Below, piece by piece: positions 32,304-64,000 of a stretch of DNA of 64,000 nt. A program made the translations under genes and the position numbers. How positions within the stretch are numbered: position 1 is the stretch's first letter; every line of letters starts with the position of its first letter. The notes under the pieces were generated by a model, which had not been told where the DNA came from, did no database searches, and saw only the letters and a program-made list of their open reading frames with translations. The DNA is from Sipunculus nudus (lineage: Eukaryota > Annelida > Sipuncula > Golfingiida > Sipunculidae), in assembly GCA_026874595.1 (NCBI GenBank), contig CM049308.1, positions 12,914,001-12,978,000 of the forward strand, given 5' to 3'.

Positions 32304-32400
32304 TAGATAGATAGAACTAGTATTTTGAGTCACTAGACAGACACGGTTGAGGTGGTCTGGGACCACCGCCCCGGCCTGTCTCTTTAGACTATAATTTTGA
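32304..32400 (-). other. 3'-terminal hairpin module of M1 (type I)
   Basis: Read on the minus strand: GTCTAAAGAGACAGGCC, a perfect GGTGGTC/GACCACC hairpin with loop CCA, CTCAACCGTGTCTGTC, then ACTAGTTC and the (TATC)n tail. The outer AGAC and GTCT can also pair. The same layout with different stem sequences ends G1, G2 and G3. In non-LTR elements a 3' structure of this kind is where the reverse transcriptase binds its template; that role here is inferred. Confidence 0.7.
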
Positions 32401-32681
32401 TGTCGAAAATTGCCACACAAGCCAAGCCAAGGAGCCGCGAAAGCCACCAGCACGCACCCGCACCGGTGACCGTGAAAGCTACATCATCCACACCGACAAA
32501 GCCCCGAGCGGGCCACTCACCGCACGGATATCATCAGCAAAGCCGCTGCCCCCACGATCCCGGTCGCGAGCGACATCCCCGAGCAGAGTGCGCACCACAA
32601 CAGAGAGACCCCAACACAAGCAGGGAAACCCAGATCGCCGCCAGAACAACCTCTACCGCGAAGAGCCGGACTTCCTGTGAC
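32401..32681. other. GC-rich module of M1
   Basis: About 280 bp of markedly higher GC than its surroundings, present also in M2 (46,128-46,412). In M3 most of it is replaced by a 95-bp unit. Both strands are partly open and neither resembles a known protein. The few differences between copies give amino-acid changes in the plus frame, so there is no sign of coding constraint. Confidence 0.5.
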
Positions 32682-32728
32682 TTGGGTCGGGCAGGCTGTC
32701 TTGGCTTGGTCTTCAGCTGGTCCCCGAT

Positions 32729-32934
32729 CAGTGGGCCTAAAGTTGTCTGTCTGCCCACTGTCAGGGATTCTTGGCTTGTCTTGCTAGTCTTGACTTGGGT
32801 TCCGGCTGTCGGGGTGGTCTTGTCTTCTCTTGGCTTGTCCTAGGGCTACCAGTCTTGACTTGTCTTGAGGCTTGGTCTTGGGTCTTGGTCTTGTGGCAGG
32901 CAGCGGACCTAAAGTTGTCTGTCTGTCCGCTGCC
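32729..32934. other. Two hairpins with the same 16-base loop and different stems
   Basis: Hairpin 1 (32,729-32,760): CAGTGGGC / GCCCACTG. Hairpin 2 (32,899-32,934): GGCAGCGGAC / GTCCGCTGCC. Both enclose the identical loop CTAAAGTTGTCTGTCT. Copies lie at 46,458-46,489 and 46,629-46,664 in M2, and at 51,107-51,138 and 51,277-51,312 in M3. Fully paired but unrelated stems around one loop argue for structural constraint. Between them lie GTCTTG/GGCTTG-rich short repeats. Confidence 0.8.
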
Positions 32935-32954
32935 AGGTCGATTAGTGATTGATT

Positions 32955-33002
32955 AGTCCTAAATAGGACTGTTGGGGGGGGGGGGTAGTCCTAAAAAGGA
33001 CT
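32955..33002. other. Two AGTCCTAAA-AGGACT hairpins
   Basis: AGTCCTAAATAGGACTGTTGG at 32,955 and AGTCCTAAAAAGGACTGTTGG at 32,987, separated by a G-run. Copies occur in M2 (46,685; 46,712) and M3 (51,333; 51,362). The version AGTCCTAAAGAGGACTGTTG in M2 at 46,712 is identical to the motif in the 5' UTR of both Jockey-type elements (43,181 and 58,602). Confidence 0.8.
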
Positions 33003-33366
33003 GTTGGGGGTCTTGTCTGGTCTGTCTGGAGCTGTCCCGGTGTAGGTCTGGGTAGTCGTCTTGGAAGTTGCTGTCAGTGGGCGGATGGGGTGTGCGCTCG
33101 TCTGGGTGCCCTCTATTCTTCCGCTGGTGGTGTGGGGGGGCTGCCGCAGTACTTGCGCGTCGGTGTCGGATGCTGCTGTTGGTGGTTGTCAGGGGTAGTA
33201 GTTGTCCTTTGTGGGGGTGGGGGGGCCGTAGATTTCTTTATAATTTTATAAGTATCACATGGGATTTTTTAAGAAAATACCTCATGATCATTTACCCTTA
33301 TATTGTCCTAAATGAGATATCTATATGAGATATCTTTATAGTTAGAAATCTAGCCGGCCGGTGGAG

Positions 33367-33485
33367 CTCTCAGTTTGTACTTTTATATTAAGTATCACAT
33401 AAATATTTATAAGAAATATTTACGATCATGTACTTTTATAGGAAATACTTATAAGAAGTATTTTTATATAAGCGCAGACTGAGAG
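33367..33485. other. Long AT-rich stem-loop
   Basis: CTCTCAGT at 33,367-33,374 pairs with ACTGAGAG at 33,478-33,485. Inside, TTTTATATTAAGTATCA-type and AAGTATTTTTATATAAG-type stretches are complementary, giving an extended imperfect stem. It is conserved in M2 (about 47,098-47,216) and M3 (about 51,742-51,860). Confidence 0.65.
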
Positions 33486-33766
33486 AAAAGGGGGCGGGGG
33501 TAGTTGAGGCTAGTGGCGGCATCAGTTTCCATCCACTTGCTAGTGGCCGGCTTCAGTTTCCATGCCACTGGTCTGCCGGAGATGCTGTAAATTACTAATA
33601 AGATCTATAATTATACCTTATATATGAGCGTCGGATAACCAGATATTGCGTCGATATTGTGAAAAATACAAAAACAAAAGGGAGAAAAACCGGTAAAAAT
33701 CATAAAAAACGTGGGTTAGTGTGCATGAAAAAATGATGAGTGAGGTGGTGTATTTACATGAATTGT

Positions 33767-33770
<4 letters not shown>

Positions 33771-33805
<35 letters not shown>
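33771..33805. repeat. Poly-T tract of variable length in the macro-element
   Basis: 35 T in M1; the equivalent tracts are 46 T in M2 (47,502-47,547) and 22 T in M3 (52,147-52,168), in otherwise near-identical flanks. On the element strand this is an internal poly(A). It may mark an old fused 3' end, or it may be slippage-prone simple sequence. Confidence 0.9.
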
Positions 33806-33806
<1 letters not shown>

Positions 33807-33958
33807 TTAAAAGTTAATGGTGTATAAAACAGCATGGTGCATTTTTTGTACATGGGTTTAGTATGGCTCTATTCTAATTTGGGGTGTATTAGTATTGGTT
33901 AGTGGATCGGTGTTGTGTCGGTGAGTATGTATTTTCCAGAGTTGTGTCTTGTTTTAAT

Positions 33959-34560
33959 CTCCGGCAATAATAGTGTCCCGGTTTGGGCACTTTGCCTTCG
34001 ATTTGTGTTATTATTGTTCTTTAATAAAGTATTGTGTATTGCTGAGTATTAGCTGTTCTGTGTTCCTTGTAGTTTTTGCTTTTATTTTGTTTGGTTTTTA
34101 TTTTATGGAAAGGTAAAACGCGTCTCGTCCGAGCCGGCGAATTACTCATCCCGTATCAGGTGACGTTAGGTGTGTTGTTTAATTGAAGATGTTATGAATA
34201 AATCTCCGACAATAGTAGTGACCCGGTTTGGGCACTTTGTCTTTGATTTATGTCATTATTGTTCTTTATTAAAATATTGTGTATTACTGAGTGTTAGTTG
34301 TTCTATGTTCCTTGTAGTTTCTGCTTTTATTCTGTTTGGTTTTTATTTTTATTTTTGTGGGAAGGTAAAACGCGTCTCGACCGAGCCTGCGAATTACTCA
34401 TCCCATATTTGGTGATGTTTGGTATGTTGTTCAATTGAAGATGTAATGAATAAATCTCAGACAATAGTAGTGACCCGGTTTGGGCACTTTGTCTTTGATT
34501 CATGTTGTTGTGGGTTTTAATAAAGTTTTAGCTTAATATAAGGATGTTGTTTTGTTGTTT
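33959..34560. repeat. ~250-bp tandem repeat, three units
   Basis: Units begin near 33,959, 34,204 and 34,456, with periods of about 245 and 252. Each holds ACAATAGTAGTG(A/T)CCCGG, TTTGGGCACTTTG, TTTATTTTATGG-type sequence, GGTAAAACGCGTCTCG and GCGAATTACTCATCCC. M2 carries the same set (47,699-48,300). In M3 it is split by the second Jockey-type element and has an extra partial duplication at 59,277-59,480. Confidence 0.85.
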
Positions 34561-34895
34561 TTAAGGTGTTAGGGAGGTTGTATTTTTCTAGACTGGTAAG
34601 TGGATGTTTTTGGGCGGGGGCGGTTTGCGCTCTTTTATGTGCTCTCTAATTTTTGTGTTTGTACTGGGAGGGGGGGGGGGGACGAGTGTAGTGAGGTTTG
34701 TTTACTGTGAGAGTTGTGTTTTTTGTTCGTGTGTGGTTTTTCTTTGTTGTCATGTCGGGGCGAGTGCTTTATTTTATTTTGAGTGTGGGTTTTATTATCG
34801 TTTTGTTAGGAAATGGGTGGTTTTTGTGGTTTATTTTTATTGTTATATTGTTTGGGAGTCGGTTTGGTCGGGGGGCGGGGCTGATATGTTAATTA

Positions 34896-35223
34896 GGGGA
34901 TGCCAGCTGCAGGGGAGTACAGGTATTGTGTTCCTCTGCAGCTAGGATCCGATGATTAATTGATGGTCGGGGTGTTTTTTCTATTTTCCTATGCCTAATA
35001 GTTTTAAAGATATTTATTTATTTTCGTCAAAATTTCGTAGGGTTTTAGTATGGATAGAGTTTTTTGGGTTCCGTAAATTTCGAGTTTATATTATTATTTC
35101 AAGTATGTTTGTTTCGTTCCTAAACTTTGTACGGGCCGTAGTTTTGATGGAAAGTTTGTATGAAAAGATGGGGCGTATTCGAGGGTCGTGGGTCAGTTAG
35201 TGTAGGTCGCGGCCCCGGCCTAG
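34896..35223. repeat. Monomer A of M1
   Basis: Begins with the type II hairpin at 34,896-34,950 (GGGGATGCCAGCTGCAG.. ..CTGCAGCTAGGATCC). It continues through GGTCGGGGTGTTTTTTC and GTACGGGCCGTAGTTTT to GGTCGCGGCCCCGGCCTAG. It is homologous along its length to monomers B and C, and is repeated in M2 (48,637-48,964) and M3 (59,798-60,125). The last 15 bases are the target of G1 and, in M2, of G3. Confidence 0.8.
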
Positions 35224-35325
35224 ACTAGACTAGATCTTGTAATTATAGTCATCAGACATCTCAGTTGAGATAAGCTGAGCTTGATCGCCCTGGATGTCTC
35301 TTTAGACTAGAAGTTCTTAATCCCT
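35224..35325 (-). other. 3'-terminal module of G1 (type I)
   Basis: On the minus strand: GTCTAAAGAGACATCCAGG, an imperfect CTCAG/CTGAG hairpin, CTCAACTGAGATGTCTGATGA, then ATCTAGTCTAG tail units. It keeps the AAAGAGAC box, the CTCAAC box and GTCTG of M1 while the stem differs. The 3' UTR just upstream (35,457-35,530) also carries CTGCAGCTGGGATCCCC, close to one arm of the type II hairpins. Confidence 0.65.
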
Positions 35326-35692
35326 TTAAATAAAGGTTTCAAGTTTTCCAAGATCGAAATAAAGTTGAAATTTTGAAATCGAAAAATTTAAGATCGAAAA
35401 ATCGTTCCGTTCGCAGTGCTTTAGACGAGAATGCCACATGTCTGTATTAGTCGACCAGGGGGGATCCCAGCTGCAGCGGTAGGAAGTCTGTTTTCTATGG
35501 ATGTACAATAGAGTGGATCCTAGCTGCACTGGAATAAAATTTCGCTTTTCTTCGTTATTGATTTTTAGAGTTCGTTTGTTCCTGGTCAGCCAACCGTGAG
35601 ACACTTCAATATCGTTTTACAATCTTGCTCGGAGCTTTGTTTGCGCTTTGTTTATACTTCTGGAGCCGTGAGAACTTTCATTGTTTACTGTG

Positions 35693-36994
35693 TCAGGTTT
35701 CCTGAAGGCCGGATTCAGTCTTTTCTTCAACACTTGTTTCCGTTGTACTTTCTTCAGTTATTTGAGATTCTTCTGATGGATTTTCGGCCTCCATTTCTTC
35801 TGTTTCGTCTTCAGCTTCTGATTCTGAGGTTGCGTATGTTGCTTGCGGGATCTGTTCCACTACTTCATATATCTTTTCTTTTGTGTTATGCAGCTTTATG
35901 GGATCACGTTCAGTCCATGAGTCAAACCAATCTTTGTATAACGGTTTTAAATCTTCCATGTGGTAATCGAGGTCGTCTGGGTGGATTGGTGTGTCCATTA
36001 GAAATTGAGCTACATAGGCAATGTTCCGTGCTTGTGTTTGTCGTAGGTCTTCATCGTAATCATTATACAGTACTGCTGCAGCCACCATATATATGAGTTG
36101 AGTTCCAGTGAAGTGTAGAGTCTGTACTTGTGCGTCTGCAGTCGTCTTCGGTGTTTCCGCTGCTTTTGATGGTTCCGTCTGTATTATTGGTGTCTGGCTC
36201 GTTTCTTGAGGTTCCGTGGGTTGTGATATTGCTTGGCAAGGAGGTGATGTCTTTTGTTGTGCTAGTTGACGATATTTTTTGTAGAAAGGGCACCCTCTGT
36301 AGGAAGTGGCGTGGTCCCCTTGACAGTTTGCGCATGTTTTCTGTGTTTTGGTACATTGATTTGTTCGGTGTTCAGGTGCTCCACAACGGTAGCATCTAGG
36401 CTTGTTTTGACATTCTCGGCTGTGGTGTCCCCATCCTGAGCAGCGGCCACAGAATGGATGAGTAATGGTCAGGTATTCTTCGGTTTTGAATAACTTGTAA
36501 CCGGCTTTTAGTCCATGTTGCAATGCGGAATCAGCATCTTCTCTGCTTGTCATGAGGACCTTGACTTTGTGAATGGGCGACTTTGTAGCTGAGCTATATA
36601 GGCGTATCACATCCTTGATTGAGTAGGTTTCTTCTAGCAGTGACTTTAAATCTTGGGTGTCCGTAGATGGGGGAACGCCTTTCATCACCACAGGAAATTC
36701 TGTAAGTTTGGTTGGTTTTACTCTCTCTCCTGATTTCTTACGTCTATGTTTCACCGTTGTAATCCCAGTGACGGTTTTGAATTTTCCATAACTTTTCCAC
36801 TCCGCCAGGTTCTTTAGGCGAGATCCGTCTATTGCCTTGGTGGGGTGTATATATAAGCTGTCTCTTGTTTTGGTAGCTGTGTCCAGAGTTATATCTGGAA
36901 AGGCCGCTTTTAAACTCCTATACAGTTGTACCGGGTCATTGAGGATATCTGGTGGGATACCCGAGACCAGGTAACCGTCCTCAGGCGAGGTCAT
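35693..36994 (-). CDS. Jockey-type Gag (ORF1) of G1, 433 aa
   Basis: A nucleic-acid-binding Gag. An N-terminal region (YLVSGIPPDIL, AAFPDITLDTATKTRDSLY) and an RRM-like segment (EFPVVMKGVPPS, IRLYSS, HKVKVLM) of the type that precedes zinc knuckles in Jockey Gags come first. Three knuckles follow: CGRCSGWGHHSREC, CYRCGAPEHRTNQC and CANCQGDHATSYRGC. The last has the CX2CX3HX6C spacing and YRGC ending seen in Jockey Gags. A linker with a few QT motifs leads to a predicted helical domain and a Glu-rich acidic tail (EAEDETEEMEAEN). The frame is open further upstream into the target duplication. I chose the ATG at 36,994 because MTSPEDG aligns with the starts of G2 and G3. Confidence 0.85.
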   Translation of the reverse strand: MTSPEDGYLVSGIPPDILNDPVQLYRSLKAAFPDITLDTATKTRDSLYIHPTKAIDGSRLKNLAEWKSYGKFKTVTGITTVKHRRKKSGERVKPTKLTEFPVVMKGVPPSTDTQDLKSLLEETYSIKDVIRLYSSATKSPIHKVKVLMTSREDADSALQHGLKAGYKLFKTEEYLTITHPFCGRCSGWGHHSRECQNKPRCYRCGAPEHRTNQCTKTQKTCANCQGDHATSYRGCPFYKKYRQLAQQKTSPPCQAISQPTEPQETSQTPIIQTEPSKAAETPKTTADAQVQTLHFTGTQLIYMVAAAVLYNDYDEDLRQTQARNIAYVAQFLMDTPIHPDDLDYHMEDLKPLYKDWFDSWTERDPIKLHNTKEKIYEVVEQIPQATYATSESEAEDETEEMEAENPSEESQITEESTTETSVEEKTESGLQET

Positions 36995-37083
36995 GATAAT
37001 AGTTGTGCGAGCGCGCTGTTGACACGTCTTGTCTAAACGAACACTAATACACGACTGCGGCCCCGGCCTAGTTGCCATGGCTT

Positions 37084-37727
37084 CCATCCATAACCGTTAC
37101 ACCGCTCAGGCAATAACTAGGGTTTCTACGCCGCAGTTTTGCCTCTTCGGGTCCCCCTCATTCTGCACTGAGGTCGCCAGAACTGACACGCCAGCTAGCC
37201 AGCTAGGTCCGGCCCGCCCTCGCCAACCGTCAACCACCGAGGAATCCCCCAGGTGTTCCGGGAGCCTGAGCCTCGCAACCTGCCAGTAATGTCCGAGCGC
37301 TACCGGCCTGCCCCTGGACTATTCGCAGTCCCGTCATGAGCCTTGTCCCTTTCGACCAGGTACAGCTCTCGTTCGATCGGAGCCTTCTCGGGAGCCTTCT
37401 CGGGAGCCTTCTCTGGTGCTTTTGCCATCATGTCTTGAGCCTTGTCCCTGCTGGTCCTGACCGGGCCCCCGGTTATTATGACGTCTTGGAGCCTTGTCCC
37501 TGATCCTTTCGGGATCCCCGTAACTTTTTCCACCAAACGGCTGGCTCTACAGGGCCAGGTTCCATACTGCCGGCAACAGGCTGGCCTACTCTTCTATCGA
37601 AAAACAGTATGGGGTCTTTTACGTGCCCGTCCCCTTCTGGACACGGGACCGCCATTTAACGTCCTCATCCGATGGACGGCCCGTGTTTGTCTTTTGCAGG
37701 CGGGCGCTGCGGTGCCCCGGAGCCTTT
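37084..37727 (-). other. 3' UTR of Jockey-type copy 1
   Basis: 644 bp with internal short direct repeats: GGGAGCCTTCTC three times near 37,378-37,415, and GAGCCTTGTCCCT at about 37,339, 37,438 and 37,492. A 78-codon frame (37,300-37,536) across these repeats is preserved in both copies but looks like repeat by-product. The last bases on the element strand are GTTATGGATGG. It lacks the AAAGAGAC hairpin module of the gag-only elements. Confidence 0.75.
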
Positions 37728-40517
37728 CTACCCTTCCCCCACTTTCTCTAGTGGGGTGATAATACTGGGTTTCCGTCTGCCACTGATCTTTTGCCAGTCG
37801 AGCCACATTTTGAGGTCTTTATAAAACTTCTCTTGCTTCACCTTTTCGACATAGCCTTTGCTCAACCTTAGTATGTGGTCGCTCACATACTCTATATCTG
37901 CCTTCTCGTGAAGCACAGATATCCGCGTGCGGGGCGGGAGTCTCAAGGCCGTCCTTAAGGCTCTGTTTTGAAGCCGTTGAAGTTTTTTAATATGGTGCTC
38001 TTTGGCGGTGATCAGGGCTATGCAGCCGTATGTCATAACCGGTCTGATCCAGGCTTTATAAAGGTATATCAAACTTTGGGTAGACATGCCTCCTGATCCT
38101 GCTTTTAGCACTCTTAAGCAGTTGAGTCTCGCTTTGACCCTCTGTTCGATATCCTCTATATGAGCCGCCCATGTGAGTCTCTTATCAACCGTCAGACCCA
38201 GAAATTTTATCTGGTCTGTGAATTGAATTGGTTCCCCGGCCAATTTCAGTTCTGGCGCTTTGCCGGCCTTACTGCCTTTCAGGTGCCTACCGAATTTGCA
38301 AGCCTGCGTTTTTGTCGCATTGACTCTTACTCGCCATTTGGCGCACCACTTTGTCACCTCGTCTAGACCGGCCTGTAACCTGGGTACTGCCCTCTTGCTA
38401 TGTGTCCATAGCGCAGTGTCGTCCGCAAATTGGCTCGTCGCCCCCGTGCGGACCCCTCCTTTCTCGGACAGGCTAGGCATGTCGTTGACGAATATGACAT
38501 AGAGCAGCGGGCTGAGAGCTGAGCCCTGCGGTGTGCCTGCGGCGGGTTCGATCTCATGCGACTTAGCGTCACCTACTCTGACCCATAGCTTCCTGTCACT
38601 TAGGAAGGACGAGAGGAGCCTCACAATGCGAGTCGGTAGTTTTGCCTGCGTTGCGATCTTATACCTTAGACCATCCCGCCATACTGCGTCGAAGGCTTTC
38701 TCGACGTCTAGGAATACACCTATAGTATCATTAGATCGCTGCAGGCATTGTCCCACCGACTGCGTCAACCTGAACAGTTGGTCATTTGTCGACCTGCCCT
38801 TACGGAACCCGCTCTGATTCGGGTTAAAGAATTTTGCTTCCTCCAAGTGACCACTGATCCTGCCAGCCAGTATTCGTTCCAGCACTTTGCCCAGAATTGG
38901 CAGTAGGCTGATGGGTCGGTAGCTTTTCGGCAGCGAGTGATCCTTTCCCGGCTTCGGGATCATGATCACGTTCGCTCTTTTCCATGCCCTTGGGAAGTAC
39001 CCCAGTTTCAGACACGCGTTGAACACAGAAGTGAGCGCTTCCAGCCCTTCCTCCGGTAGGTTAATCAGCACTTCCCTGGTGAGGCCGTCCTCCCCCGGGG
39101 CTTTTCTGCTTTTGAGTTTTTTCAGCTTCCTGCTGACTTCCGCTTTTGAGATCGCTCTCAGTAGCGGCTCGTCCTCTGCTGTCTGAGCGTAGCAGCTCTC
39201 TACCCTTGCCAGAGGCGAGTATAACTCGTTTGCACCTTGTCTTACGTGCCGATCAACCTCCTCCTGTGTTTGGTCGTCGAACTGGGGTCCCGTCGGGACC
39301 TTGTGTATGTTCCGGAGCGTCTCCGCGAACAAATTTGCCTTGTCCTTTTCTGTACTAGCCACCTTTCCCATCGGGCCTGTGAGGTCTGTAGTTCCGACCG
39401 ATGGTTTGTTCAGCGAGCCCGTGTATTGGCGGACCTGTCGCCAAAATTCGCCCACTGATATTCTGTGGTCCATACCGCTCGTGAACTTGTACCATTCCGC
39501 CTTTTTCTGGGCTTTTATTGCATTTTTCACCTCCCGACTAATAGCATTGTATTGGGATTTTAACTCCTCTGTTCGGAGTTGGATCTGAAGCCTTCTGATC
39601 CTCCTTCTTTCCCTTACAAGTGCTTTAATCGTTGGGGTGAATGACCACCAGTTACGGTTTTTCCTTTCCACCATCGGACACGCTCGGTCCAGGCAATCTC
39701 GCATTTCAGAGGTCAGTTTGTCGACTAGGGTGTCGATTCCTTCTGGGGTCGATGGTTCAGCGATACCTCGGAGCCTGTCTGCCAATTCATTTTTAAAGAG
39801 CCTCCAGTTTGCCTTTCTCCAAGGCCTCACCATTTTGGGTGGCTTTCTGTTCGCTCTCCAATCGAGCTCTAAATGAATTGGCATGTGATCGCTGCCTATA
39901 TCTTCCCCTACATGAAATTTACTGACCAGTCCTACCTCGGGCGATACGATTGCCAGATCGAGTATGTTCGTTCCACCGGTCGTGGGGTTCACCCTGGTCG
40001 GGCTCCCATCGTTCATTATCACCATACCGTACCGATCTATGCAATCCATCAGTGCTTTCCCGTTCAGATTAGAGGATCTGCTGCCATACGAGGTGTGTGG
40101 GGCATTTAGGTCCCCTAACACCACGTAGTGGCTGCTGTTCCTCTTAATCTTGTCAAAGAGTTGTGCCCTGGGCCGTGACTGTGGCGGGTTGTAATATACT
40201 ATTACATCGATTGCCGGGTCGCCGCTGTGGACAGGTTCAACTCTAACCGTTAGAGCTTCTATGTCCATCCTTCCTAGCCAGTTTGTTTGGCGGTATACTA
40301 GGTTCTCTTTGATCAAGAGAGCCACTCCGCCTCCCATATTACCGTCTGGCCGTCCCCTGTGTAGCAGGTTATAGCCGGTGAAGGAAACGTTTCTGGTCAG
40401 CTTAGACTCGCTGATAGCCATGATATCTACGGAATGCCTGTGGATATAGTTGAGTATCTCTAACCTCCTTCCATACAGGCCATTCACGTTTGCGTGGCAT
40501 AGTTTGAGCTTAACCAT
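37728..40517 (-). CDS. Jockey-type ORF2: endonuclease and reverse transcriptase, 929 aa
   Basis: Performs target-primed reverse transcription. The endonuclease is residues ~1-220 (N10/N12 in CHANVNG, E38 in ISESK, D136/N138 in LGDLN, D187, and S209-D210-H211). The linker is ~220-440. The reverse transcriptase follows with SYRPISLLP, FLDVEKAFDAVW, AGTPQGSALSPLLY and catalytic FADD at 697-700, then the FLGLTVDKRLTW and LQNRALRTALRLP thumb region. No RNase H is seen. The start is the ATG at 40,517, inside ATGGTTAAG, which overlaps the TAA of gag (40,512-40,510). An upstream in-frame ATG at 40,646 lies inside gag and is less likely. The start-stop overlap suggests coupled reinitiation. It is fully open and likely functional. 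Confidence 0.93.
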   Translation of the reverse strand: MVKLKLCHANVNGLYGRRLEILNYIHRHSVDIMAISESKLTRNVSFTGYNLLHRGRPDGNMGGGVALLIKENLVYRQTNWLGRMDIEALTVRVEPVHSGDPAIDVIVYYNPPQSRPRAQLFDKIKRNSSHYVVLGDLNAPHTSYGSRSSNLNGKALMDCIDRYGMVIMNDGSPTRVNPTTGGTNILDLAIVSPEVGLVSKFHVGEDIGSDHMPIHLELDWRANRKPPKMVRPWRKANWRLFKNELADRLRGIAEPSTPEGIDTLVDKLTSEMRDCLDRACPMVERKNRNWWSFTPTIKALVRERRRIRRLQIQLRTEELKSQYNAISREVKNAIKAQKKAEWYKFTSGMDHRISVGEFWRQVRQYTGSLNKPSVGTTDLTGPMGKVASTEKDKANLFAETLRNIHKVPTGPQFDDQTQEEVDRHVRQGANELYSPLARVESCYAQTAEDEPLLRAISKAEVSRKLKKLKSRKAPGEDGLTREVLINLPEEGLEALTSVFNACLKLGYFPRAWKRANVIMIPKPGKDHSLPKSYRPISLLPILGKVLERILAGRISGHLEEAKFFNPNQSGFRKGRSTNDQLFRLTQSVGQCLQRSNDTIGVFLDVEKAFDAVWRDGLRYKIATQAKLPTRIVRLLSSFLSDRKLWVRVGDAKSHEIEPAAGTPQGSALSPLLYVIFVNDMPSLSEKGGVRTGATSQFADDTALWTHSKRAVPRLQAGLDEVTKWCAKWRVRVNATKTQACKFGRHLKGSKAGKAPELKLAGEPIQFTDQIKFLGLTVDKRLTWAAHIEDIEQRVKARLNCLRVLKAGSGGMSTQSLIYLYKAWIRPVMTYGCIALITAKEHHIKKLQRLQNRALRTALRLPPRTRISVLHEKADIEYVSDHILRLSKGYVEKVKQEKFYKDLKMWLDWQKISGRRKPSIITPLEKVGEG

Positions 40518-42540: not shown

Positions 42541-43380
42541 TCTTTTATTCAGTGCCCTCTCACTGAATTGTCTAGATATACTCCCGCTCGGGCAGTATGT
42601 TGGTTTCCCGACCTTTCTCGATATATTCCTTTTGGGAATATATCGGGCTTTTCCTCTCGCCCTTTTTGACCTCGCTCTTCTGTCGGGTCTTATTATTTTA
42701 TTCCCGTTCGGGCAATAAAATAATTTTGGATTCTCTCTCCGCCTCCTGCCTCTATTTTCGCCCCGATTGCTCGTACCTGTTCAGGCTACGATTTCTCTTT
42801 TCAGTAGATTGGTTGTTTCCAGAGCGTGGAAGACAACTTATCTTCAGATGATCCGTGAGCCAACGAGCCGAGAGCGGGCTCTATTCAGCAGTTTTTACCC
42901 AGAGCCGGGCTTAAAACTGTGAGCTTTGTGGACGGTCGGGCCGAGAGCTAGCCCTTGAGCCGAGAGCAGGCTCAATGAATGAGTTAATTAACTGTACCGA
43001 GAGCGGGTATCTGTTAATTAGTTCTTTGTAGGTTTCACCTACCCCGGAGCCAACAAGAAAATTCGAAAAAGTGATACTTTACCTGATTCCCCTAAAGTAA
43101 CCTTAACTTATAGAACTAAGCCCTAGCTAAGATGCACTTGTTTGGGGATGGTAGTACTGAAAAGCTGAAAAAGATAGACTAGTCCTAAAGAGGACTGTTG
43201 TGGGTGGCTCCTATCACCAGTCTCGCTAATCACTAATGTGAATAGCTTGACTGGGAAGTTAGGCGCCAGTGAGTCTGCTGTGTCTCCGCGTCTCTGTCCA
43301 CTTGACTAATTAGGCGGTGGTGGTCTAATTAGAGTTGCTCCCAGGCACGTCCGTTCTCCACGGCTGCTGGGAATGCAATG
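42541..43380 (-). promoter_or_regulatory. 5' UTR of Jockey-type copy 1 with a stem-loop array
   Basis: Near the gag start are three hairpins: ATACTCCCG-CTC-GGGCAGTAT; CGATATATTCC-TTTT-GGGAATATATCG; and ATTATTTTATT..CCGTTCGG..AATAAAATAAT. Further 5' come four stem-loops that share loop GAGAGC: 42,865-42,881 (GAGCC/GGCTC), 42,938-42,954 (GGGC/GCCC), 42,955-42,975 (TTGAGCC/GGCTCAA), and 42,995-43,009 (TACC/GGTA) inside a TAATTAAC/GTTAATTA clamp. AGTCCTAAAGAGGACT at 43,181 is shared with the macro-element. Promoter, packaging or translation roles are all possible; the structures are what is seen. Confidence 0.75.
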
Positions 43381-44238: not shown

Positions 44239-44340
44239 GAACTGAACTGAAACATGTATTTTACTTCCTCAGACACACATGGTTGAGCCGGACTAAGTCC
44301 GACGTCCCAGTGGTCTCTTTAGAAGAATTTTGAATTTAGT
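44239..44340 (-). other. 3'-terminal module of G2 (type I)
   Basis: On the minus strand: TTCTAAAGAGACCACTGGG, a perfect CGGACTTAGTCCG hairpin, GCTCAACCATGTGTGTCTGAG, then TTTCAGTTCAGTTCA tail. The AAAGAGAC, CTCAACC and GTGTCTG boxes are as in M1, and the stem is entirely different. Confidence 0.7.
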
Positions 44341-44466
44341 CCAAAAAATCCCGTGATGTTATTCAGGGAAAATCGTTGGTCACGTTCGCTGAAGTCTGAC
44401 AAATAGCCGTGGTGGACTCTATGGTGTTTTGGTATCTTCCTCGGAGTAAATGCTAATTTTCAAGGT

Positions 44467-47497: not shown

Positions 47498-47548
<51 letters not shown>

Positions 47549-49060: not shown

Positions 49061-49189
49061 GTTTTAGATGTTAGGTCCCAAAGTATTTCCGTAAAAAGGT
49101 TCGCTGAGTCGACTAGTAGCAATGCCTGGTGAAACTTCTGTAACGTTTTTTCTCGGAGATTCACTTTTATTTTTCAAAATTTTACGTCT

Positions 49190-55929: not shown

Positions 55930-57952
55930 GACGTCCCCCCACCGACTTCTTAAAACCGTTGCTACCGGCCTTTTTGGATTTGGGCTGCCTATAGCTGCCC
56001 TTATCCTTTTTGGATGATGCGTTACTGGCTGGTACCGATCGAGCTCTCGGCTCCTCACGGTCCTTTTCCGTTCCTCTGTCCGACAGCGCCGTCCACGACA
56101 ATTCTAGGCCTAGGTGCCTAGTAGCCGACTTCTTCACCACTGTTACGGCCCGTTCTCTGGGCTCATTGACTTTCGCCAGCTTCAGCGTTTCTGTGATCAC
56201 TTCACAGAGAAACTTTATCAGTTTCTCTGGGTTGATCTCTAGCATAGCCTGGCTTTCAGCCACGGCTTGCTCCTCCGCCGGAGCTACCCCCTTTTCCGTT
56301 ACATTGCGGTTTTTGGCCGCGGCCCGCCCTCCGGCAAGCCTGGTGGACGTGCTACCGCTAGCCACGACCTGCCCCCTTTCGGGAGCGGGAGCCTTCTGGG
56401 TCCTTACAGCCTCTGAGGCCGTGGGTCCCCGGGAGCCTCTGGTGATTTTGGCGTAGGTCACGCCAGTCTGGTGGGCTTTGCCTTTCCTGCCTTCCGCGCT
56501 CTTGCTGGTCGGCTTCCCTTCAGTGCCGTGTTTAGCCGTTGTCGGCCTCTGCCGGGCACCTTTGAAGGCTGTACAGCCCCTGTACATCGCCCTGTGGTCG
56601 CCCCCGCAGTTTGCACATTTTGGCTTGCTCTTGTCGGCTGCCCTTCGACAATCTTTGGCATAGTGGCCTGCCTCGCCACAGTGCCTGCACCTGCCAGCCT
56701 TAGTGCATACTTTGGCCGTGTGCCCGAACTGGTAGCAGTTCAGGCACTGGATCGGCTCTACGGCCTTCCGGAAAGCCTCGCAGCGTATACGCTCGCTCCC
56801 GTACCTGAACCCGTGCTCGAGTGCCCTCGTAGCGCTCTCGCTCTGCTGAAAGTGCACGAGCACCTTCCACACCGGCTTTTTTCCGTGCCTGAGCCGCACG
56901 ACCTCTTTGGCTTTTAAGCCCTGTTCATTTAACTCCGCCATGATCTCCTCTGTTGAGATATGCGGGCTCATTCCTCTGGCCACCACCGATGTTTGTTGGG
57001 TGCCCTCTGGTTTGGCTTGCTTGTTGCCCCGTGCAAGCTCCACCACTACCTTGGGCCCCGCCTTGATCAGTGGGCGCCAGTCGGGCCTGGCTTCCCTTGC
57101 TGTTTCGGGGAGCGTGACCACCATTACTCCCCTGTCGAACTTTGTCTTACAGGCGGAGGTGCCCGTGCACTCCGTCACCAGCCTGTTCATTTTTCTACTG
57201 TTCTGCCTGAGGGCTGCCGGTAAGCCCCTGACCCAGTACCGAGCCAAGCCCTCTTTCTCCTGGTCGGCCACCTCACCTTCCGGCTGGCCGTTCTCCGTGC
57301 TCCCTGTCCGTACAGGCGAGCTTCGGGTCGGAGTTCCGTCCGCTGCTTGATTAACCCGGGTCCCCGGTTTGGTGGGCGACCCGCTATCACCTGAGCGGAC
57401 TGGATTAGAGGGCGTCGATCTCTCGATCGAGCTCGGGGACAGTGTCCTGAGAACCGTCGGCCACTCAGGCGATCCCACGTCTATGATTGGAGACCCCGAC
57501 CGTTCGGGCGTCCCCGCCTTGTCCGGCCCCGGGACCTCCGGGGTGACCACTCCCGGGGTCTGCGGGGTTACCACTACCCTGTATGAATCGTTGCCCCTCT
57601 CCGGGGAGTCATCGAATAGCTCGAAACTGGCGTCCCCTGTCGGGGTGGCCGGTACCGAGCTCGGGGAACCCAGCGTAGAGCTTGGCGAGTTCGATGCCCC
57701 TTGCATCGCTCCCTCGCCTGCTGGGCTCTGTGAGGCCGAACCCTTGTTCGCGCCTCGACCCTCCATCTCGGTCCGCCCGTCCGCCGCCTGCGCTCTACCG
57801 ATGCTCTCCGTGATGAGCCCCGTAATCATCTGGAGGGCGTCAGGCCCGTGCCTTGCTGCCTGCTGCAGCCCACCTGTGATCTGGGTGAGACCCGGGATCA
57901 CTTCTCTTTCCCTCTGAGAAAGCACCAACAGCCTGGTAAGTGCTTCCGCCAT
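55922..57952 (-). CDS. Jockey-type Gag, copy 2, 676 aa
   Basis: Same length and architecture as copy 1, with three zinc knuckles from residue 403. About seven residue differences are scattered outside the knuckles (for example DVRTEM/DGRTEM, EGKVAD/EGEVAD, LEVNPE/LEINPE). All are substitutions with no indel, which fits recent common origin with both frames maintained. Confidence 0.92.
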   Translation of the reverse strand: MAEALTRLLVLSQREREVIPGLTQITGGLQQAARHGPDALQMITGLITESIGRAQAADGRTEMEGRGANKGSASQSPAGEGAMQGASNSPSSTLGSPSSVPATPTGDASFELFDDSPERGNDSYRVVVTPQTPGVVTPEVPGPDKAGTPERSGSPIIDVGSPEWPTVLRTLSPSSIERSTPSNPVRSGDSGSPTKPGTRVNQAADGTPTRSSPVRTGSTENGQPEGEVADQEKEGLARYWVRGLPAALRQNSRKMNRLVTECTGTSACKTKFDRGVMVVTLPETAREARPDWRPLIKAGPKVVVELARGNKQAKPEGTQQTSVVARGMSPHISTEEIMAELNEQGLKAKEVVRLRHGKKPVWKVLVHFQQSESATRALEHGFRYGSERIRCEAFRKAVEPIQCLNCYQFGHTAKVCTKAGRCRHCGEAGHYAKDCRRAADKSKPKCANCGGDHRAMYRGCTAFKGARQRPTTAKHGTEGKPTSKSAEGRKGKAHQTGVTYAKITRGSRGPTASEAVRTQKAPAPERGQVVASGSTSTRLAGGRAAAKNRNVTEKGVAPAEEQAVAESQAMLEINPEKLIKFLCEVITETLKLAKVNEPRERAVTVVKKSATRHLGLELSWTALSDRGTEKDREEPRARSVPASNASSKKDKGSYRQPKSKKAGSNGFKKSVGGRHG

Positions 57953-58806
57953 TCTTTTATTCAGTGCCCTCTCACTGAATTGTCTAGATATACTCCCGCT
58001 CGGGCAGTATTTTGGTTTCCCGACCTTTCTCGATATATTCCTTTTGGGAATATATCGGGCTTTTCCTCTCGCCCTTTTTGACCTCGCTCCTCTGTCGGGT
58101 CTTATTATTTTATTCCCGTTCGGGCAATAAAATACTTTTGGATTCTCTCTCCGCCTCCTGCCTCTATTTTCGCCCCGATTGCTCGTACCTGTTCAGGCTA
58201 CGATTTCTCTTTTCAGTAGATAGGTTGTTTCCAGAGCGTGGAAGACAACTTATCTTCAGATGATCCGTGAGCCAGCGAGCCGAGAGCGGGCTCTATTCAG
58301 CAGTTTTTTACCCAGAGCCGGGCTTAAAACTGTGAGCTTTGTGGACGGTCGGGCCGAGAGCTAGCCCTTGAGCCGAGAGCAGGCTCAATGAATGAGTTAA
58401 TTAACTGTACCGAGAGCGGGTATCTGTTAATTAGTTCTTTGTAGGTTTCACCTACCCCGGAGCCAACAAGAAAATTCGAAAAAGTGATACTTTACCTGAT
58501 TCCCCTAAAGTAACCTTAACTTATAGAACTAAGCCCTAGCTAAGATGCACTTGTTTGGGGATGGCAGTACTGAAAAGCTGAAAAGCTGAAAAAGATAGAC
58601 TAGTCCTAAAGAGGACTGTTGTGGGTGGCTCCTATCACCAGACTCGCTAATCACTAATGTGAATAGCTTGACTGGGAAGTTAGGCGCCAGTGAGTCTGCT
58701 GTGTCTCCGCGTCTCTGTCCACTTGACTAATTAGGCGGTGGTGGTCTAATTAGAGCTGCTCCCAGGCACGTCCGTTCTCCACGGCTGCTGGGACCGCAAT
58801 GCAATG
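57953..58806 (-). promoter_or_regulatory. 5' UTR of Jockey-type copy 2
   Basis: The same hairpin series as copy 1, including the GAGAGC-loop stem-loops around 58,277-58,425 and AGTCCTAAAGAGGACT at 58,602-58,617. The 5' end reads CATTGCATTGCGGTCCCAG on the minus strand, four to five bases longer than copy 1. Confidence 0.75.
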
Positions 58807-59797
58807 TCTCGTCCGAGCCGGCGAATTACTCATCCCATATCAGGTGACTTTTAGGTGTGTTGTTTAATTGAAGATGTTATGAATAAATCTCCGACAATAG
58901 TAGTGACCCGGTTTGGGCACTTTGTCTTTGATTTATGTCATTATTGTTCTTTATTAAAATATTGTGTATTCCTGAGTGTTAGTTGTTCTATGTTCCTTGT
59001 AGTTTTTGCTTTTATTCTGTTTGGTTTTTATTTTTATTTTTGTGGGAAGGTAAAACGCGTCTCGACCGAGCCTGCGAATTACTCATCCCATATTTGGTGA
59101 TGTTTGGTATGTTGTTCAATTGAAGATGTAATGAATAAATCTCAGACAATAGTAGTGACCCGGTTTGGGCACTTTGTCTTTGATTCATGTTGTTGTGGGT
59201 TTTAATAAAGTTTTAGCTTAATATAAGGATGTTGTTTTGTTGTTTTTTTTTAAGGTGTTAGGGAGGTTGTATTTTCTCGACCGAGCCTGCGAATTACTCA
59301 TCCCATATTTGGTGATGTTTGGTATGTTGTTCAATTGAAGATGTAATGAATAAATCTCAGACAATAGTAGTGACCCGGTTTGGGCACTTTGTCTTTGATT
59401 CATGTTGTTGTGGGTTTTAATAAAGTTTTAGCTTAATATAAGGATGTTGTTTTGTTGTTTTTTTAAGGTGTTAGGGAGGTTGTATTTTTCTAGACTGGTA
59501 AGTGGATGTTTTTGGGCGGGGGCGGTTTTCGCTCTTTTATGTGCTCTCTAATTTTTGTGTTTGTACTGGGAGGGGGGGGGGGGACGAGTGTAGTGAGGTT
59601 TGTTTACTATGAGAGTTGTGTTTTTTGTTCGTGTGTGGTTTTTCTTTGTTGTCATGTCGGGGCGAGTGCTTTATTTTATTTTGAGTGTGGGTTTTATTAT
59701 CGTTTTGTTAGGAAATGGGTGGTTTTTGTGGTTTATTTTTATTGTTATATTGTTTGGGAGTCGGTTTGGTCGGGGGGCGGGGCTGATATGTTAATTA

Positions 59798-60981
59798 GGG
59801 GATGCCAGCTGCAGGGGAGTACCGGTATTGTGTTCCTCTGCAGCTAGGATCCGATGATTAATTGATGGTCGGGGTGTTTTTTCTATTTTCCTATGCCTAA
59901 TAGTTTTAAAGATATTTATTTATTTTCGTCAAAATTTCGTAGGGTTTTAGTATGGATAGAGTTTTTTGGGTTCCGTAAATTTCGAGTTTCTATCATTATT
60001 TTAAGTATGTTTGTTTCGTTCCTAAACTTTGTACGGGCCGTAGTTTTGATGAAAAGTTTTGTATGAAAGGATGGGGCGTATTCGAGGGTCGTGGGTCAAT
60101 TAATGTAGGTCGCGGCCCCGGCCTAGTGCCATGGCTTGACCTGTTGGTTGATTATTGTGTTTTGTAGTATGTAAAACAGGGGATGCCAGCTGCAGCGGGG
60201 TAAGTTGTGTACCCGCCGCAGCTAGGATCCGATGTTTGATTGATGATCTGGGTGTTTTTTCTAATTTTCTGGGCCTGATATTTCTTATGATTTTTATTAT
60301 TTTTCGACGTAATTTCGTGAAACTCGGGAATGGATAAAGTTTAGTGTGTCCTGTTAATTTGGAGTTTCTATTACTATTTTAAGTGCGTAAATTTTGTTCC
60401 TGAAATTTGTACGGGCCGATGTTCAGTAACTAATTTGTGTGGAGGGATGGGATGTCTTAGGGGTCAATTAATGTAGGTTGCGGCCCCTACCTAGTGCCTT
60501 GGCCTGACCTGTTAATTGATGTTTAAGGCGTGTTGTTTACCAAACAGGGGATGCCGGCTGCAGCGGGATAAGCATTGTTCCCGCCGTAGCTAGGATCCGA
60601 TGCTTAGTTGATGGTCGGGCCGGTTTTTACTGATTTTGGCATTAATTTTTTTCCAAAATTTCTATTTTTATTTGCCGAAACTTCTTAATGTTTAAGTCTA
60701 GGGCGGGTTCTGTGGGTTTTGAGGGAATTGGGGTTGTATTTTATTTTCTAGTTTGTTAATTTGGTTGCTAAAGTTGGTACGGGGCGTTGTTTCGCTTATA
60801 AATTTTGGAGGGTCGGGGAGTGATTTTTCTTTAGTTTTGAACCTTATGTAAACTCGTTAATATTTGGTTTTTAATTTAGAAATTTGGGGGAGTGGAAGAT
60901 TTTAGAAAGTTCTTTAGGTTTTCGCTATAATTTTGGGCTTTGGGGAATAATAGGTTGGTTAATTTTGGGGGTGAAATGGAT
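59798..60981. repeat. Monomers A, B and C of M3
   Basis: Type II hairpins at 59,798-59,852, 60,179-60,230 and 60,547-60,598. The A/B junction GCGGCCCCGGCCTAGTGCCATGG at 60,110-60,133 is uninterrupted and shows the empty site used by G1, G3 and Jockey-type copy 1. C ends GGTGAAATGGAT at 60,970-60,981, the same sequence duplicated around G2. Confidence 0.85.
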
Positions 60982-63091
60982 ACGGGCCTTAGTTGTGCTT
61001 AATTGATTGTGGAGACCTTGTATGCAAATTAGGGGATGCCAGCTGCAGGGGTCTAATTTACCTCTGCAGATTCGATCCCCCTGTTGCTCGAAGGTCGGGG
61101 TGTGTTGAATGGAGGTCAGGTCGGTTTACAGGTGCGGGGTCGCGACCCATATTGCTGACCTCTTGTTTTTGTGAGTGTTGGGTTCTGTGTTGTGTGTATC
61201 CGTTGAGAAGGCTTGTTGGTGTAGTTTTTTGGATGTTTAATATATAGTTTATTTGTTTTATTAATTATTTACTATGTTATTGTTGATTTTGTCCTTCTAG
61301 AATGTAATCTAGAGGGGACTTTATTTTTATATTGTTTTTTGGTTGTGTGTAATCGTGTTGATATTTAAGTAATTTTATTGTGTCCAGTTCTTTTATTCTT
61401 TCATAGGAGTTTGTTGCTTGTTCTTTTAAATATTCAGTGATTTTGGGGGTGTTTGTTTTTTCTCTTAATTCGTCTGTTTTTCTTAGTTTGTGTGTTCTGA
61501 GAATGGCTCTCAGTGCTTTATTTTGTGTGATTTCTAATTTATTTAACATTGTTTTTCCTGCGCCTAGGAACGCAATGGACCCATATGTGCCTATAGGGCG
61601 GATCCATTGTTTGTACAGGTAGCTGGCCGTTTCTGTTTTCGGTCCGTCATGTTTGTAGCACAGAGCTTTTAGAATATTTACTCTGTTCCACATTCTTTGG
61701 ATTATATTTTCGATGTGTGGTTTCCAGGTGGCTCTTGAGTCGAATGTTACACCTAGAAATTTTGCCTCTTTGTGTTCTTTGAGGTCCTCTCCTAATAATT
61801 CTAGGGGCTCGAAATATTTGGGTTTTTTAGCTTTTGTGAATAAAACAGTTTGTGTTTTTGAGGGGTTTAAGCGGACTCTCCAGTCGTCGCACCAATCTTC
61901 TATTCTTTGTAATTGGGCCTGTACTTTATTTCTGGAGTATTTTGGGTTCGTGTCGGTCGACCAGATGGCGATGTCGTCAGCGTATTGTGATACGCATAGT
62001 TGTTGTCCTGATTTGGGGATGTCATTTACATACATTATGTATAGTAGAGGGCTGAGAACAGAGCCCTGGGGGGTCCCTGCTTTAAGAGTTATTTCCTGTG
62101 ATAGGGTCCCTTTAACTTTTACTCTAAGTGTCCTGTTGTGTAAAAAGGATGAAATTAGTCTGATTATTTTATTTGGTAGATGGGATTTCATTATTTTGTA
62201 TCTGATTCCGTCGGACCATACGGAGTCAAAAGCCTTTTCCACATCGAGGAATGTGGCCAGGGTATATTGACTCCGTTTAAAACCTGTGGTTATTGATTGG
62301 CTAAGTCGGAGGATGTGGTCGGTGGTGGATCTGCCCGCTCTGAACCCGGACTGATCTTGGTTAAAAAATGGGCCCCCCAATTCGGGAGGTCGGTTGTCCA
62401 AAAACGTGGTTATCCTATTTTTTAGGATTTTTTCAAATAATTTTCCTATGCAGGGGAGTAAGCTGATAGGTCTGAAATTTGTTGGTTTGTCTTGTGTTTT
62501 GCCGGGTTTTGGAATCATTGTGACTACGGCTTTTTTCCAGTCGTCTGGGAAGTATCCCCAGTTAATGCAGAGTGTGTATAATTTCGCTATTCTTTCTAAA
62601 CAGGTGTCGGGGAGTTTTTTTAATATTACGTAGTTGATGTTGTCTGCGCCTGGGGCTGATTTTCCCTTGGCTGTTTTAAGTGCGCGTTTTATTTCAATTA
62701 GCGCAACGGGCCTGACTGCGGGGTTATTATCATCTGTTTCATTTATTTGTGTTTGTAATGGTTTGAATAAAATCGGGTTGTTTTCTATAGTTTCAGTAAC
62801 TGTATCATAGAGTTCTTCATTAAAATCTTCATCTTCTGGTGTTGTGTGTATTTTTTCCAGGGTGTTCGCGAATAAATCTGCTTTGCTTTGTGGGGTTTCG
62901 GCTACGGAGCCGTCGGGTTTTAACAGTGGTTGGGATTGCCCTGTGCTGGGATTTGTTCTTGTGTTTGAATATTGTTTGAATTTGTTCCAAAATTGTTTTG
63001 TGTTTGTTTTATCATCTAAGCTATTTATGTAGTCTGTCCATTGTGTGCGTTTTTGTTCTAGGATAGCTTTTTGTGTTAGTTTATTTATTCT
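60979..63091 (-). mobile_element. 5'-truncated third RT element (RT3)
   Basis: A minus-strand fragment with a ~300-bp 3' UTR (60,979-61,276) and the RT-bearing part of an ORF2. The 3' terminus (GGCCCGTATC on the element strand) joins the 5' end of M3 at the G2-type target GGTGAAATGGAT. Its 3' UTR contains the type II hairpin at 61,032-61,078, which ties this RT to monomers A, B and C. The 5' side stops inside the ORF at 63,091, where a B monomer begins at GCTTGACCTG. No target duplication is seen. Confidence 0.8.
61277..63091 (-). pseudogene. Jockey-type reverse transcriptase lacking the endonuclease (RT3)
   Basis: The frame is open for about 605 codons from the truncation point to the stop. 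It starts in the linker after the lost endonuclease (FWNKFKQYSN, KADLFANTLEKIH) and runs through KSAPGADNI, FRPISLLPCIGK, FLDVEKAFDSVW, AGTPQGSVLSPLLY, the catalytic YADD (about 61,984-61,973), FLGVTFDSRATW and LEITQNKALRAILR to the end, EGQNQQ. It is clearly related to but well diverged from the two complete copies, and AT-richer. All RT motifs are intact, so the truncation is its only visible defect. No ATG precedes the linker, so it is scored as a fragment. Confidence 0.88.
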
Positions 63092-63930
63092 GGCTTGACC
63101 TGTTGGTTGATTATTGTGTTTTGTAGTATGTAAAACAGGGGATGCCAGCTGCAGCGGGGTAAGTTGTGTACCCGCCGCAGCTAGGATCCGATGTTTGATT
63201 GATGGTCTGGGTGTTTTTTCTAATTTTCTGGGCCTGATATTTCTTATGATTTTTATTATTTTTCGACGTAATTTCGTGAAACTCGGGAATGGATAAAGTT
63301 TAGTGTGTCCTGTTAATTTGGAGTTTCTATTACTATTTTAAGTGCGTTAATTTTGTTCCTGAAATTTGTACGGGCCGATGTTCAGTAACTAATTTGTGTG
63401 TAGGGATGGGATGTCTTAGGGGTCAATTAATGTAGGTTGCGGCCCCTACCTAGTGCCTTGGCCTGACCTGTTAATTGATGCTTAATGGGTGTTGTATACC
63501 AAACAGGGGATGCCAGCTGCAGCGGGATAAGCATTGTTCCCGCCGCAGCTAGGATCCGATGCTTAGTTGATGGTCGGGCCGGTTTTTACTGATTTTGGCA
63601 TAAATTTTTTTCCAAAATTTCTATTTTTATTTGCCGAAACTTCTTAATGTTTAAGTCTAGGGCGGGTTCTGTGGGTTTTGAGGGAATTGGGGTTGTATTT
63701 TATTTTCTAGTTTGTTAATTTGGTTGCTAAAGTTGGTACGGGGCGTTGTTTCGTTTATAAATTTTGGAGGGCCGGGGAGTGATTTTTCTTTGGTTTTGAC
63801 CCTTATGTAACCTCGTTAAAATTTGGTTTTTAATTTAGAAATTTGGGGGAGTGGAAGATTTTAGAAAGTTCTTTAGGTTTTCGCTATAATTTTGGGCTTT
63901 GGGGAATAATAGGTTGGTTAATTTTGGGGG
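63092..63930. repeat. Extra monomers B and C, 3'- and 5'-truncated
   Basis: Starts within B at GCTTGACCTGTTGG directly after the RT3 truncation point. Hairpins lie at 63,138-63,189 and 63,506-63,557. It ends at AATTTTGGGGG, ten bases before the usual C end, where the M4 tail starts. C here has the GCCGCAGC arm that restores full pairing of the hairpin. Confidence 0.8.
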
Positions 63931-64000
63931 TAGATAGATAGAACTAGTATTTTGAGTCACTAGACAGACACGGTTGAGGTGGTCTGGGACCACCGCCCCG
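63931..64000 (-). mobile_element. Macro-element copy M4, start only
   Basis: TAGATAGATAGAACTAG tail followed by the type I 3' module up to GGACCACCGCCCCG at the window edge. It shows that the head-to-tail series continues to the right. Confidence 0.8.

Follow-up and report, generated by a model that had tools for sequence, protein, structure and literature searches.

The HeT-A, TART, and TAHRE elements of Drosophila, in the account cited here, form same-strand arrays in which a gag-only member needs the reverse transcriptase (RT) of another element, and they combine a long 3' untranslated region (3'UTR) with a G-poor sense strand and a conserved gag (PMC5537684). Tandem clusters rich in 3' ends are also formed by Zepp and ZeppL in Chlorella, Coccomyxa, and Chlamydomonas, mostly inside chromosomes (PMC3446292, PMC8226300, PMC11005252). 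Zepp is described as inserting in a nested fashion that targets existing copies (PMC8226300) and as having one cluster per chromosome (PMC3446292). Two further systems are related in part: G2/Jockey-3 of Drosophila centromeres, Jockey-type elements reported as concentrated in a few chromosomal islands (PMC6516634), and HAL1 (half-L1) of mammals, a non-autonomous derivative of a long interspersed nuclear element (LINE) presented as encoding ORF1p only (PMC5753468). The subject of this report is a head-to-tail array of Jockey-type elements in the sipunculan Sipunculus nudus. It begins at position 32304 of the window, by which we mean the whole stretch of 64,000 nucleotides that was analyzed, CM049308.1 (below, C3):12914001-12978000. 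The initial annotation proposed that the array is a telomeric one of the HeT-A/TART kind. We find instead that it very probably lies inside the chromosome and is a one-way nest of non-long terminal repeat (non-LTR) retrotransposons, built up through the usual target-primed mode of insertion.

What is the array made of? The sense strand of its elements is the minus strand, which holds all eight open reading frames (ORFs) of at least 200 aa from 35 kb on, and the window ORFs and domain matches bear out the coexistence of gag-only and gag-plus-RT members; on both points the initial annotation was right. Element M is 9.2 kb long, with a gag of 580 aa, an endonuclease and RT frame of 969 codons, a 3'UTR of 4.1 kb, and a tail of (TCTA)n or (TCTAG)n. 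Its endonuclease-RT frame (M 2184-5093) overlaps the end of gag by 40 nt and is without an early ATG, the N-terminal endonuclease residues lying upstream of the first ATG; this layout suggests that ORF2 starts by a frameshift or by non-AUG initiation. Element R is 6.3 kb long (gag 676 aa, endonuclease-RT [EN-RT] protein 929 aa, tail (ATGG)n), and its two complete copies in the window (Table 1) are 99.35% identical. The ORF2 proteins of M and R share 40% identity. The domain order found for Jockey-type elements, gag with CCHC knuckles followed by APE endonuclease and RT, is present here, and we take M and R to be Jockey-like from this architecture and from general knowledge of the group rather than from an RT tree. 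The zf-CCHC profile scores above its cut-off in the R gag only and below it in the gags of M, gA, gB, and gC. The sense strand of M has a G content of 12 to 17%, except in the last 1.5 kb, where it is 21%.

The remaining members, gA, gB, and gC, are separate gag-only elements of 1.8 kb. Compared with the gA gag, identity is 37% for the gag of gB and 33% for that of gC; in its knuckle region, gC shares 31% identity with the M gag. Because these elements have ends of their own, the idea of a macro-element with a common 3'UTR and an exchangeable gag was rejected. An AlphaFold model of gA (pLDDT 47) was too poor and was not used. A relative of M occurs at two examined loci (L029 96-2047, L036 6831-8783), whose gag and 5'UTR match those of M at only about 74% identity; in L036 its 5' half is joined to an ORF2 and a 3'UTR of M type, so that chimeric 5' halves exist in the M family.

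Alignments of the M, R, and gag-only sequences to 200 kb of C3, with inspection of the boundaries, established the order of the elements. Four M copies in the window share one 3' terminus, ACTAGTATTTTGAG, exact at 32316, 46045, 50807, and 63943, with a TAGA/TAGAC run before each; when up to two mismatches are allowed, there are five matches in the window versus 0.58 expected, the fifth (at 5226) having two mismatches. The initial annotation had recognized these four ends, gave correct coordinates, and read the sequences of three joints accurately (GAAATGGA, GACCTG, and TTGGGGG). What it saw there as eroded 5' ends are target sites that lie inside M, in the 3'UTR. Its claim that the joints lack target duplications fails when both ends of each element are paired, which reveals duplications for gB (ATCCATTTCACC), gA and gC (CTAGGCCGGGGCCG), and M3 (CAGGTCAAGCCA); instead of being serially attached by their 3' ends, the elements nest.

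M2 illustrates how deep this nesting goes. The three pieces of this single element are spread across 112 kb (C3 13067838-13072141, 12977091-12977931, and 12960041-12962964), parted by M4-M8 and by M3. M3 lies within M2 with CAGGTCAAGCCA at either side, M4 and the chain M5-M8 lie within M2 at the start of its 3'UTR repeat region (M 5379-5398), and M2 lies within M1 at the same site. The window piece at 63091-63930, considered as a TART-like 5'-UTR repeat within the 3'UTR, was rejected as such, being the middle of M2. gA in M1 and gC in M2 occupy one target site, CTAGGCCGGGGCCG, gB occupies the hot site of M1 (described below), and R copies are found in M1, M3, M5, M6, M7, and M8. A diagnostic variant, CCATATCAC, occurs in the 200 kb only at junctions of the M2 chain (six, including two in a 93-kb duplicate); the remaining 12 site copies read CCATTTCAC, including three in the duplicate.

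Neighboring M copies have differing 5' truncation points and nested inserts, each insert with its own duplication. A scripted comparison found a flank match of at least 10 bp in 15 of 17 tested insertions versus 2 of 200 random pairs, with the caveat that the match scored for M4 consists of tail repeat (inspection by eye gives CCCCCAAAA as the duplication) and that for M6 includes tail. The duplications are mostly 10 to 17 bp. The R-R pair in the M7 5'UTR has a 7-bp match only, and M7 itself scored none, its boundary having been set off-position; GTATCCATATCAC is visible in the alignment. As for the duplicate, C3 12987130-13173741 is a tandem duplication of 93.3 kb with breakpoints at M tails and 99.93% identity over the 59.6 kb compared; it could be real or an assembly effect.

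Why do so many M copies lie inside other M copies? The M 3'UTR contains a hot landing site of about 20 bp (M 5379-5398, sequence AAGGCCCGTATCCATTTCACCCCC). Seven of nine hand-listed M-in-M events fall at M 5370-5400, an interval of 31 bp (0.4% of the M sequence available). If insertion were uniform, P would be about 6e-16, or 4e-9 for four of six events when the chain is taken once. The site also received two of five gag-type inserts and two of 11 R inserts. Genome-wide, the pattern of an M 3' end, at most 24 nt, and ATCCATWTCAC has 13 matches on one strand (10 on C3, three of them in the duplicated block, and 3 on C14), every one within the C3 or C14 array, with 0 control matches, and an exact M 14-mer occurs 75 times where about 10 are expected from the control. 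On C17, five gB copies lie head to tail, 1,785 bp apart, with ACCCCCAAAATTAC at 6/6 joints; its first 13 bases are those of the M site. Not every M copy lies at this site: others have gone into CAGGTC, CTTCAGG, and a tRNA gene, and single exact M ends are found at other places.

The C3 array extends from 12946304 to about 13274424 (328 kb), at 13% of the 97.9-Mb contig in an assembly of 1.43 Gb and 153 contigs. Both of its ends are internal, and the chromosome end that the reading of the initial annotation would place to the right is not there. The C3 sequence examined comprises the left 193.7 kb of the array (inside the 200 kb) and, toward its right end, a 10-kb stretch and the terminal 1.2 kb. 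Other arrays are likewise internal (C14 19.16-19.30 of 68.3 Mb, C17 43.99-44.03 of 61.1 Mb). M-type 3' ends were scored by one exact 42-mer and clusters were drawn by eye: of 94 exact ends genome-wide, 58 are in clusters on seven contigs (26 on C3, 14 on C14, 5 on C17, 4 each on C2 and C5, 3 on C15, and 2 on C7), and many Mb of further mapped sequence lie on both sides of all seven. Within clusters 56 of the 58 share a common strand, both exceptions being on C14. The other 36 ends are single and on both strands, so that dispersal in both orientations, which the initial annotation had named as speaking against a telomeric array, is seen in part. On the other large contigs exact M ends are single or absent, although diverged clusters could escape the 42-mer. 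One cluster per chromosome, entertained as centromere evidence, receives no backing from this list.

Exact R 3' ends number 57, of which 33 lie in the C3 (22) and C14 (11) arrays, together 0.033% of the genome; 29 of these 33 are on the array strand, and 8 of the 22 on C3 are 93-kb-duplicate copies. A gag-only protein search (best 86 of 887 candidates scored) listed 88 matches, many with open frames and several in M clusters; among the matches listed, they group at further places too, e.g., C10, C13, and C9. What about conventional telomeres? TTAGGG 30-mers gave 1,367 overlapping matches, and among the matches listed all are in one block on C2 (C2 404 kb). The TERT_RBD profile has one partial match in the genome (39/133 positions, E 1.1e-4), over its cut-off. 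The 6 kb at each C3 end contains no TTAGGG array, with AACTTAAGCTTATGTTGAAT-like repeats instead.

The C14 array offers a view of an insertion site from outside. Its 142,670 bp split a tRNA-Gln gene, with CTCTGAATCCT (11 bp) at both sides, and when the two flanks are put back together, an intact tRNA-Gln(CTG) is predicted. At the left edge (L030) the leftmost M tail is followed by CTCTGAATCCTGCG, while at the right edge (L036) AGGTCCCGTGGTGTAACGGTTAGCACTCAGGACTCTGAATCCT precedes the 5' end of the M relative. Within 2.1 kb there are also an intact tRNA gene for Gln and two for Pro. A target duplication around a whole unit, the other finding that the initial annotation had set against its own reading, thus exists for C14, and for C3 none was found. 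Among the other exact M ends genome-wide no further fit to this tRNA site was seen, and tRNA-Gln as a general founder target was dropped as a single case. For C3, the right-hand M has its own duplication, CTTCAGGAACAAA. A founder duplication based on the sole nearby second copy of a flank 12-mer was rejected, that copy being part of a 72-bp repeat. The element adjoining the right side of the array (C3 13274424-13281000; L037, L038) carries direct repeats, each at least 167 bp long, that are separated by about 6.4 kb.

How do gag-only elements persist? Between gA and a second copy, gA2, there are 20 synonymous and 6 non-synonymous changes, a ratio of non-synonymous to synonymous rates (dN/dS) of 0.08, and gB on C3 versus the five C17 copies gives 0.03 to 0.10. 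Among the near-identical C17 copies themselves dN/dS is uninformative (0 to 1.4 or undefined). For comparison, M ORF2 gives 0.03 to 0.37 (ten pairs of five copies, the three duplicate-block copies left out). Judged from these sequences, the few pairs tested show purifying selection on the Gag of the gag-only elements.

The 3' ends of M, gA, gB, and gC share one stem-loop, though their stem sequences differ. In five sequences 12 of 22 pairs changed on both sides, a level that none of 500 shuffles reached; of the five measures, the number of further pair types did not exceed the shuffled values (243/500). With 29 hand-picked sequences, 11 of 18 pairs changed (0/500 shuffles on all five measures), and both shuffle tests are inflated by relatedness of the sequences. 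The five-sequence covariance model finds the hairpin at 31 places in the window and in 19 of 35 loci examined, including a further short family (L022 5505), and gives no match at R ends. A gapped pattern has 216 matches genome-wide versus 7 for the reversed control, and Rfam at gathering scores has no match in the window. The further short family is a 555-bp insert in M10 (L022 5487-6041) with the common 3' hairpin, a (GATTC)n tail, and the duplication ACGCATTAAA. Because M and the gag-only elements share a covarying 3' hairpin, the RT of M probably copies the gag-only RNAs in trans.

The sequence shows how the array has grown. M has inserted, in the same orientation, into the 3'UTRs of earlier M copies, most often at M 5379-5398; the site is duplicated at each insertion, later copies land alongside, and the array lengthens head to tail. 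Gag-only elements and R have joined these arrays as well, sharing target sites in several cases. The M endonuclease may prefer the hot site, the border of an existing tail, or both, and the M RT may recognize the hairpin that M shares with the gag-only elements. Each gag-only element would keep a Gag of its own because the protein works on the RNA of that element. On C3, the 93-kb block would later have been doubled, by unequal exchange or as an assembly effect.

Several points weigh against this account of the array. Seven M copies in the 200 kb have an empty landing site, and the site of M2 took at least four insertions; a used site or an existing tail may therefore be favored, not sequence alone. 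A founder duplication around the whole C3 array was sought and not found, and 72 bp of its left flank are identical to the inside of the direct-repeat-flanked element on its right. The five-copy gB run on C17 could be a tandem amplification. The C3 array was read to about 13.14 Mb and again from about 13.26 Mb, and M10 and M11 are expected to have their upstream halves in between; of the 143-kb C14 array about 30 kb was read. The dN/dS values come from open frames and few pairs only, the C17 copies not being independent, and the hairpin is the one line of evidence from which trans-mobilization is inferred. Finally, the R-R pair in M6 has no duplication between its two R copies, the tail of one being joined straight to the 5' end of the next.

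With one duplication around the whole pair, that last case is what end-to-end template jumping by the RT, laying down head-to-tail multimers in single events, would leave behind, and template jumping or tandem exchange may therefore also act here. As the general origin of the array, template jumping is very unlikely, given that the other two R-R pairs examined and the M-M joints of the chain have target duplications between members. Unequal crossing-over that amplified one composite unit in tandem would account for the doubled 93.3-kb block, for two further C3 joints, 15.5 kb apart, with identical tails, and for three series with near-equal spacing: about 7.1 kb on C2, about 6.32 kb over most of the R run of C14, and 1,785 bp among the gB copies of C17. 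It is quite unlikely to be the main source of the array, since M neighbors differ in truncation points and in nested inserts with their own duplications, the 93-kb shift covers only 7 of the 26 M ends and 8 of the 22 R ends on C3, and most C3 units examined contain independent insertions with distinct duplications.

Could the array be telomeric, or ex-telomeric and internal now after a fusion, with 3' ends attached to eroded ends? Its make-up does match that described for HeT-A/TART/TAHRE (one strand, gag-only and gag-plus-RT members, long 3'UTR, G-poor sense strand, conserved gag; PMC5537684), as the initial annotation had noted in part, and the lack of any outer duplication found for the C3 array would fit. 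The telomere role does not hold up: the position is internal, joints have duplications, the entire C14 array sits in one tRNA gene with an 11-bp duplication, many Mb are mapped beyond both sides of all seven M clusters, and the genome has TTAGGG runs and a partial TERT-domain match. We consider a telomeric origin scarcely credible. Nested target-primed insertion remains the preferred reading. A bolder extension of it, which we regard as unlikely, is that the gag-only Gags bring ribonucleoprotein particles of M and the gag-only elements to existing copies, so that the islands would be self-maintaining domains, at least one of them with a chromosome function, e.g., as a centromere.

The features of the array in the window are collected in Table 1. 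Within M3, window 50965-51059 is an exact inverted 95-bp copy of 60979-61073, in place of part of the 3'UTR, and looks like a twin-priming-type rearrangement. Outside the array, another LINE lies on the minus strand at window 1107-4874 (EN-RT frame of 943 aa and zf-RVT frame of 297 aa), a tandem repeat with a 180-bp unit in 7.8 copies lies at 29081-30466, and more repeats lie at 16433-17440.

Table 1. Array elements and hairpins in the window (window positions unless marked C3; M followed by numbers, position in element M)
Feature	Position	Strand	Ends or basis
M1 3' part (M 6238-9164), outermost element on left	32304-35222	-	3' tail 32304-32315
gA, gag-only, ORF 35693-36994 (433 aa), in M1	35224-37057	-	duplication CTAGGCCGGGGCCG(C) 35210-35223 / 37058-37071
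R copy 1, complete gag + EN-RT, in M1	37084-43379	-	duplication AAGCCATGGCAAC 37071-37083 / 43380-43392
M1 upstream piece (M 5389-6237), ends at hot landing site	43382-44238	-	alignment to M
gB, gag-only, ORF 44467-45933 (488 aa)	44239-46019	-	duplication ATCCATTTCACC 44227-44238 / 46020-46031
M2 3' part (M 6238-9156 + tail)	46032-48964	-	remainder at 63091-63930 and C3 13067838-13072141
gC, gag-only, ORF 49190-50686 (498 aa)	48965-50763	-	duplication CTAGGCCGGGGCCG 48951-48964 / 50764-50777; target site of gA
M3 3' part; M3 5' truncated at M 3279, in M2	50795-52497	-	duplication CAGGTCAAGCCA 50783-50794 / 63091-63102
R copy 2, complete, in M3	52498-58805	-	duplication GGCTCGGACGAGAC 52484-52497 / 58806-58819
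M3 upstream part; RT-piece ORF 61277-62518 (413 aa); unoccupied landing site 60957-60981	58806-63090	-	alignment to M
M2 middle piece (M 5398-6232), between M3 and M4 insertions	63091-63930	-	alignment to M
M4 3' end; M4 full-length M, extends to about C3 12987134	63931-64000	-	alignment to M
M 3'-terminal hairpins	32320-32393, 46049-46122, 50811-50884, 63947-64000 (last cut by window end)	-	hairpin fold/covariance model
Hairpin in gA	35239-35311	-	covariance model
Hairpin in gB	44256-44328	-	covariance model
Hairpin in gC	48975-49051	-	covariance model

What do these arrays mean for the better-known ones? The one-way, head-to-tail layout of retrotransposons that is the hallmark of telomeres in Drosophila does not need a chromosome end to form, and the route seen here is an element whose own 3'UTR is a landing site, accompanied by gag-only partners that have its 3' hairpin in common. 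Since such partners occur in arrays away from chromosome ends, the partnership of gag-only element and RT donor may predate telomere duty or be independent of it. The common hairpin also makes trans-mobilization of gag-only elements directly testable.

Set beside the described systems, the S. nudus arrays share with HeT-A/TART/TAHRE all five features of make-up listed above, as far as the cited account describes them. They differ in not being at chromosome ends, in having target duplications, and in belonging to a genome with telomeric repeats. Their gag-only elements are short (1.8 kb), with only the terminal hairpin and a knuckle-type gag in common with M, unlike HeT-A. Position and attachment, both tested, are not those of the telomeric group, and the arrays therefore fall outside it. 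For G2/Jockey-3, no self-nesting was seen in the passages of PMC6516634 drawn on here, and the main text of that paper does not contain the term "head-to-tail." The gag-only elements recall HAL1, as described, in being of the ORF1 type only, HAL1 being a derivative of L1. HAL1 copies are dispersed and are not known to be nested. Strictly site-specific LINEs (R1/R2, TRAS/SART) have one fixed target sequence; M does not, given its insertions at CAGGTC, at CTTCAGG, in a tRNA gene, and at single sites. Among the papers listed in literature searches, titles and abstract openings showed no such array in an animal. The likeness to Zepp/ZeppL, as they are portrayed, lies in growth: M inserts into existing M copies, giving internal head-to-tail clusters. 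Zepp, however, is an L1-type algal element at presumed centromeres, with one cluster per chromosome, whereas the elements here are Jockey-like by architecture and exact M ends cluster on seven contigs only; the nest here, moreover, combines at least two autonomous and three gag-only families, and the landing site is in the element's own 3'UTR. The closest known counterparts are Zepp in mode of growth and HeT-A with its RT donor in the structure of the team.

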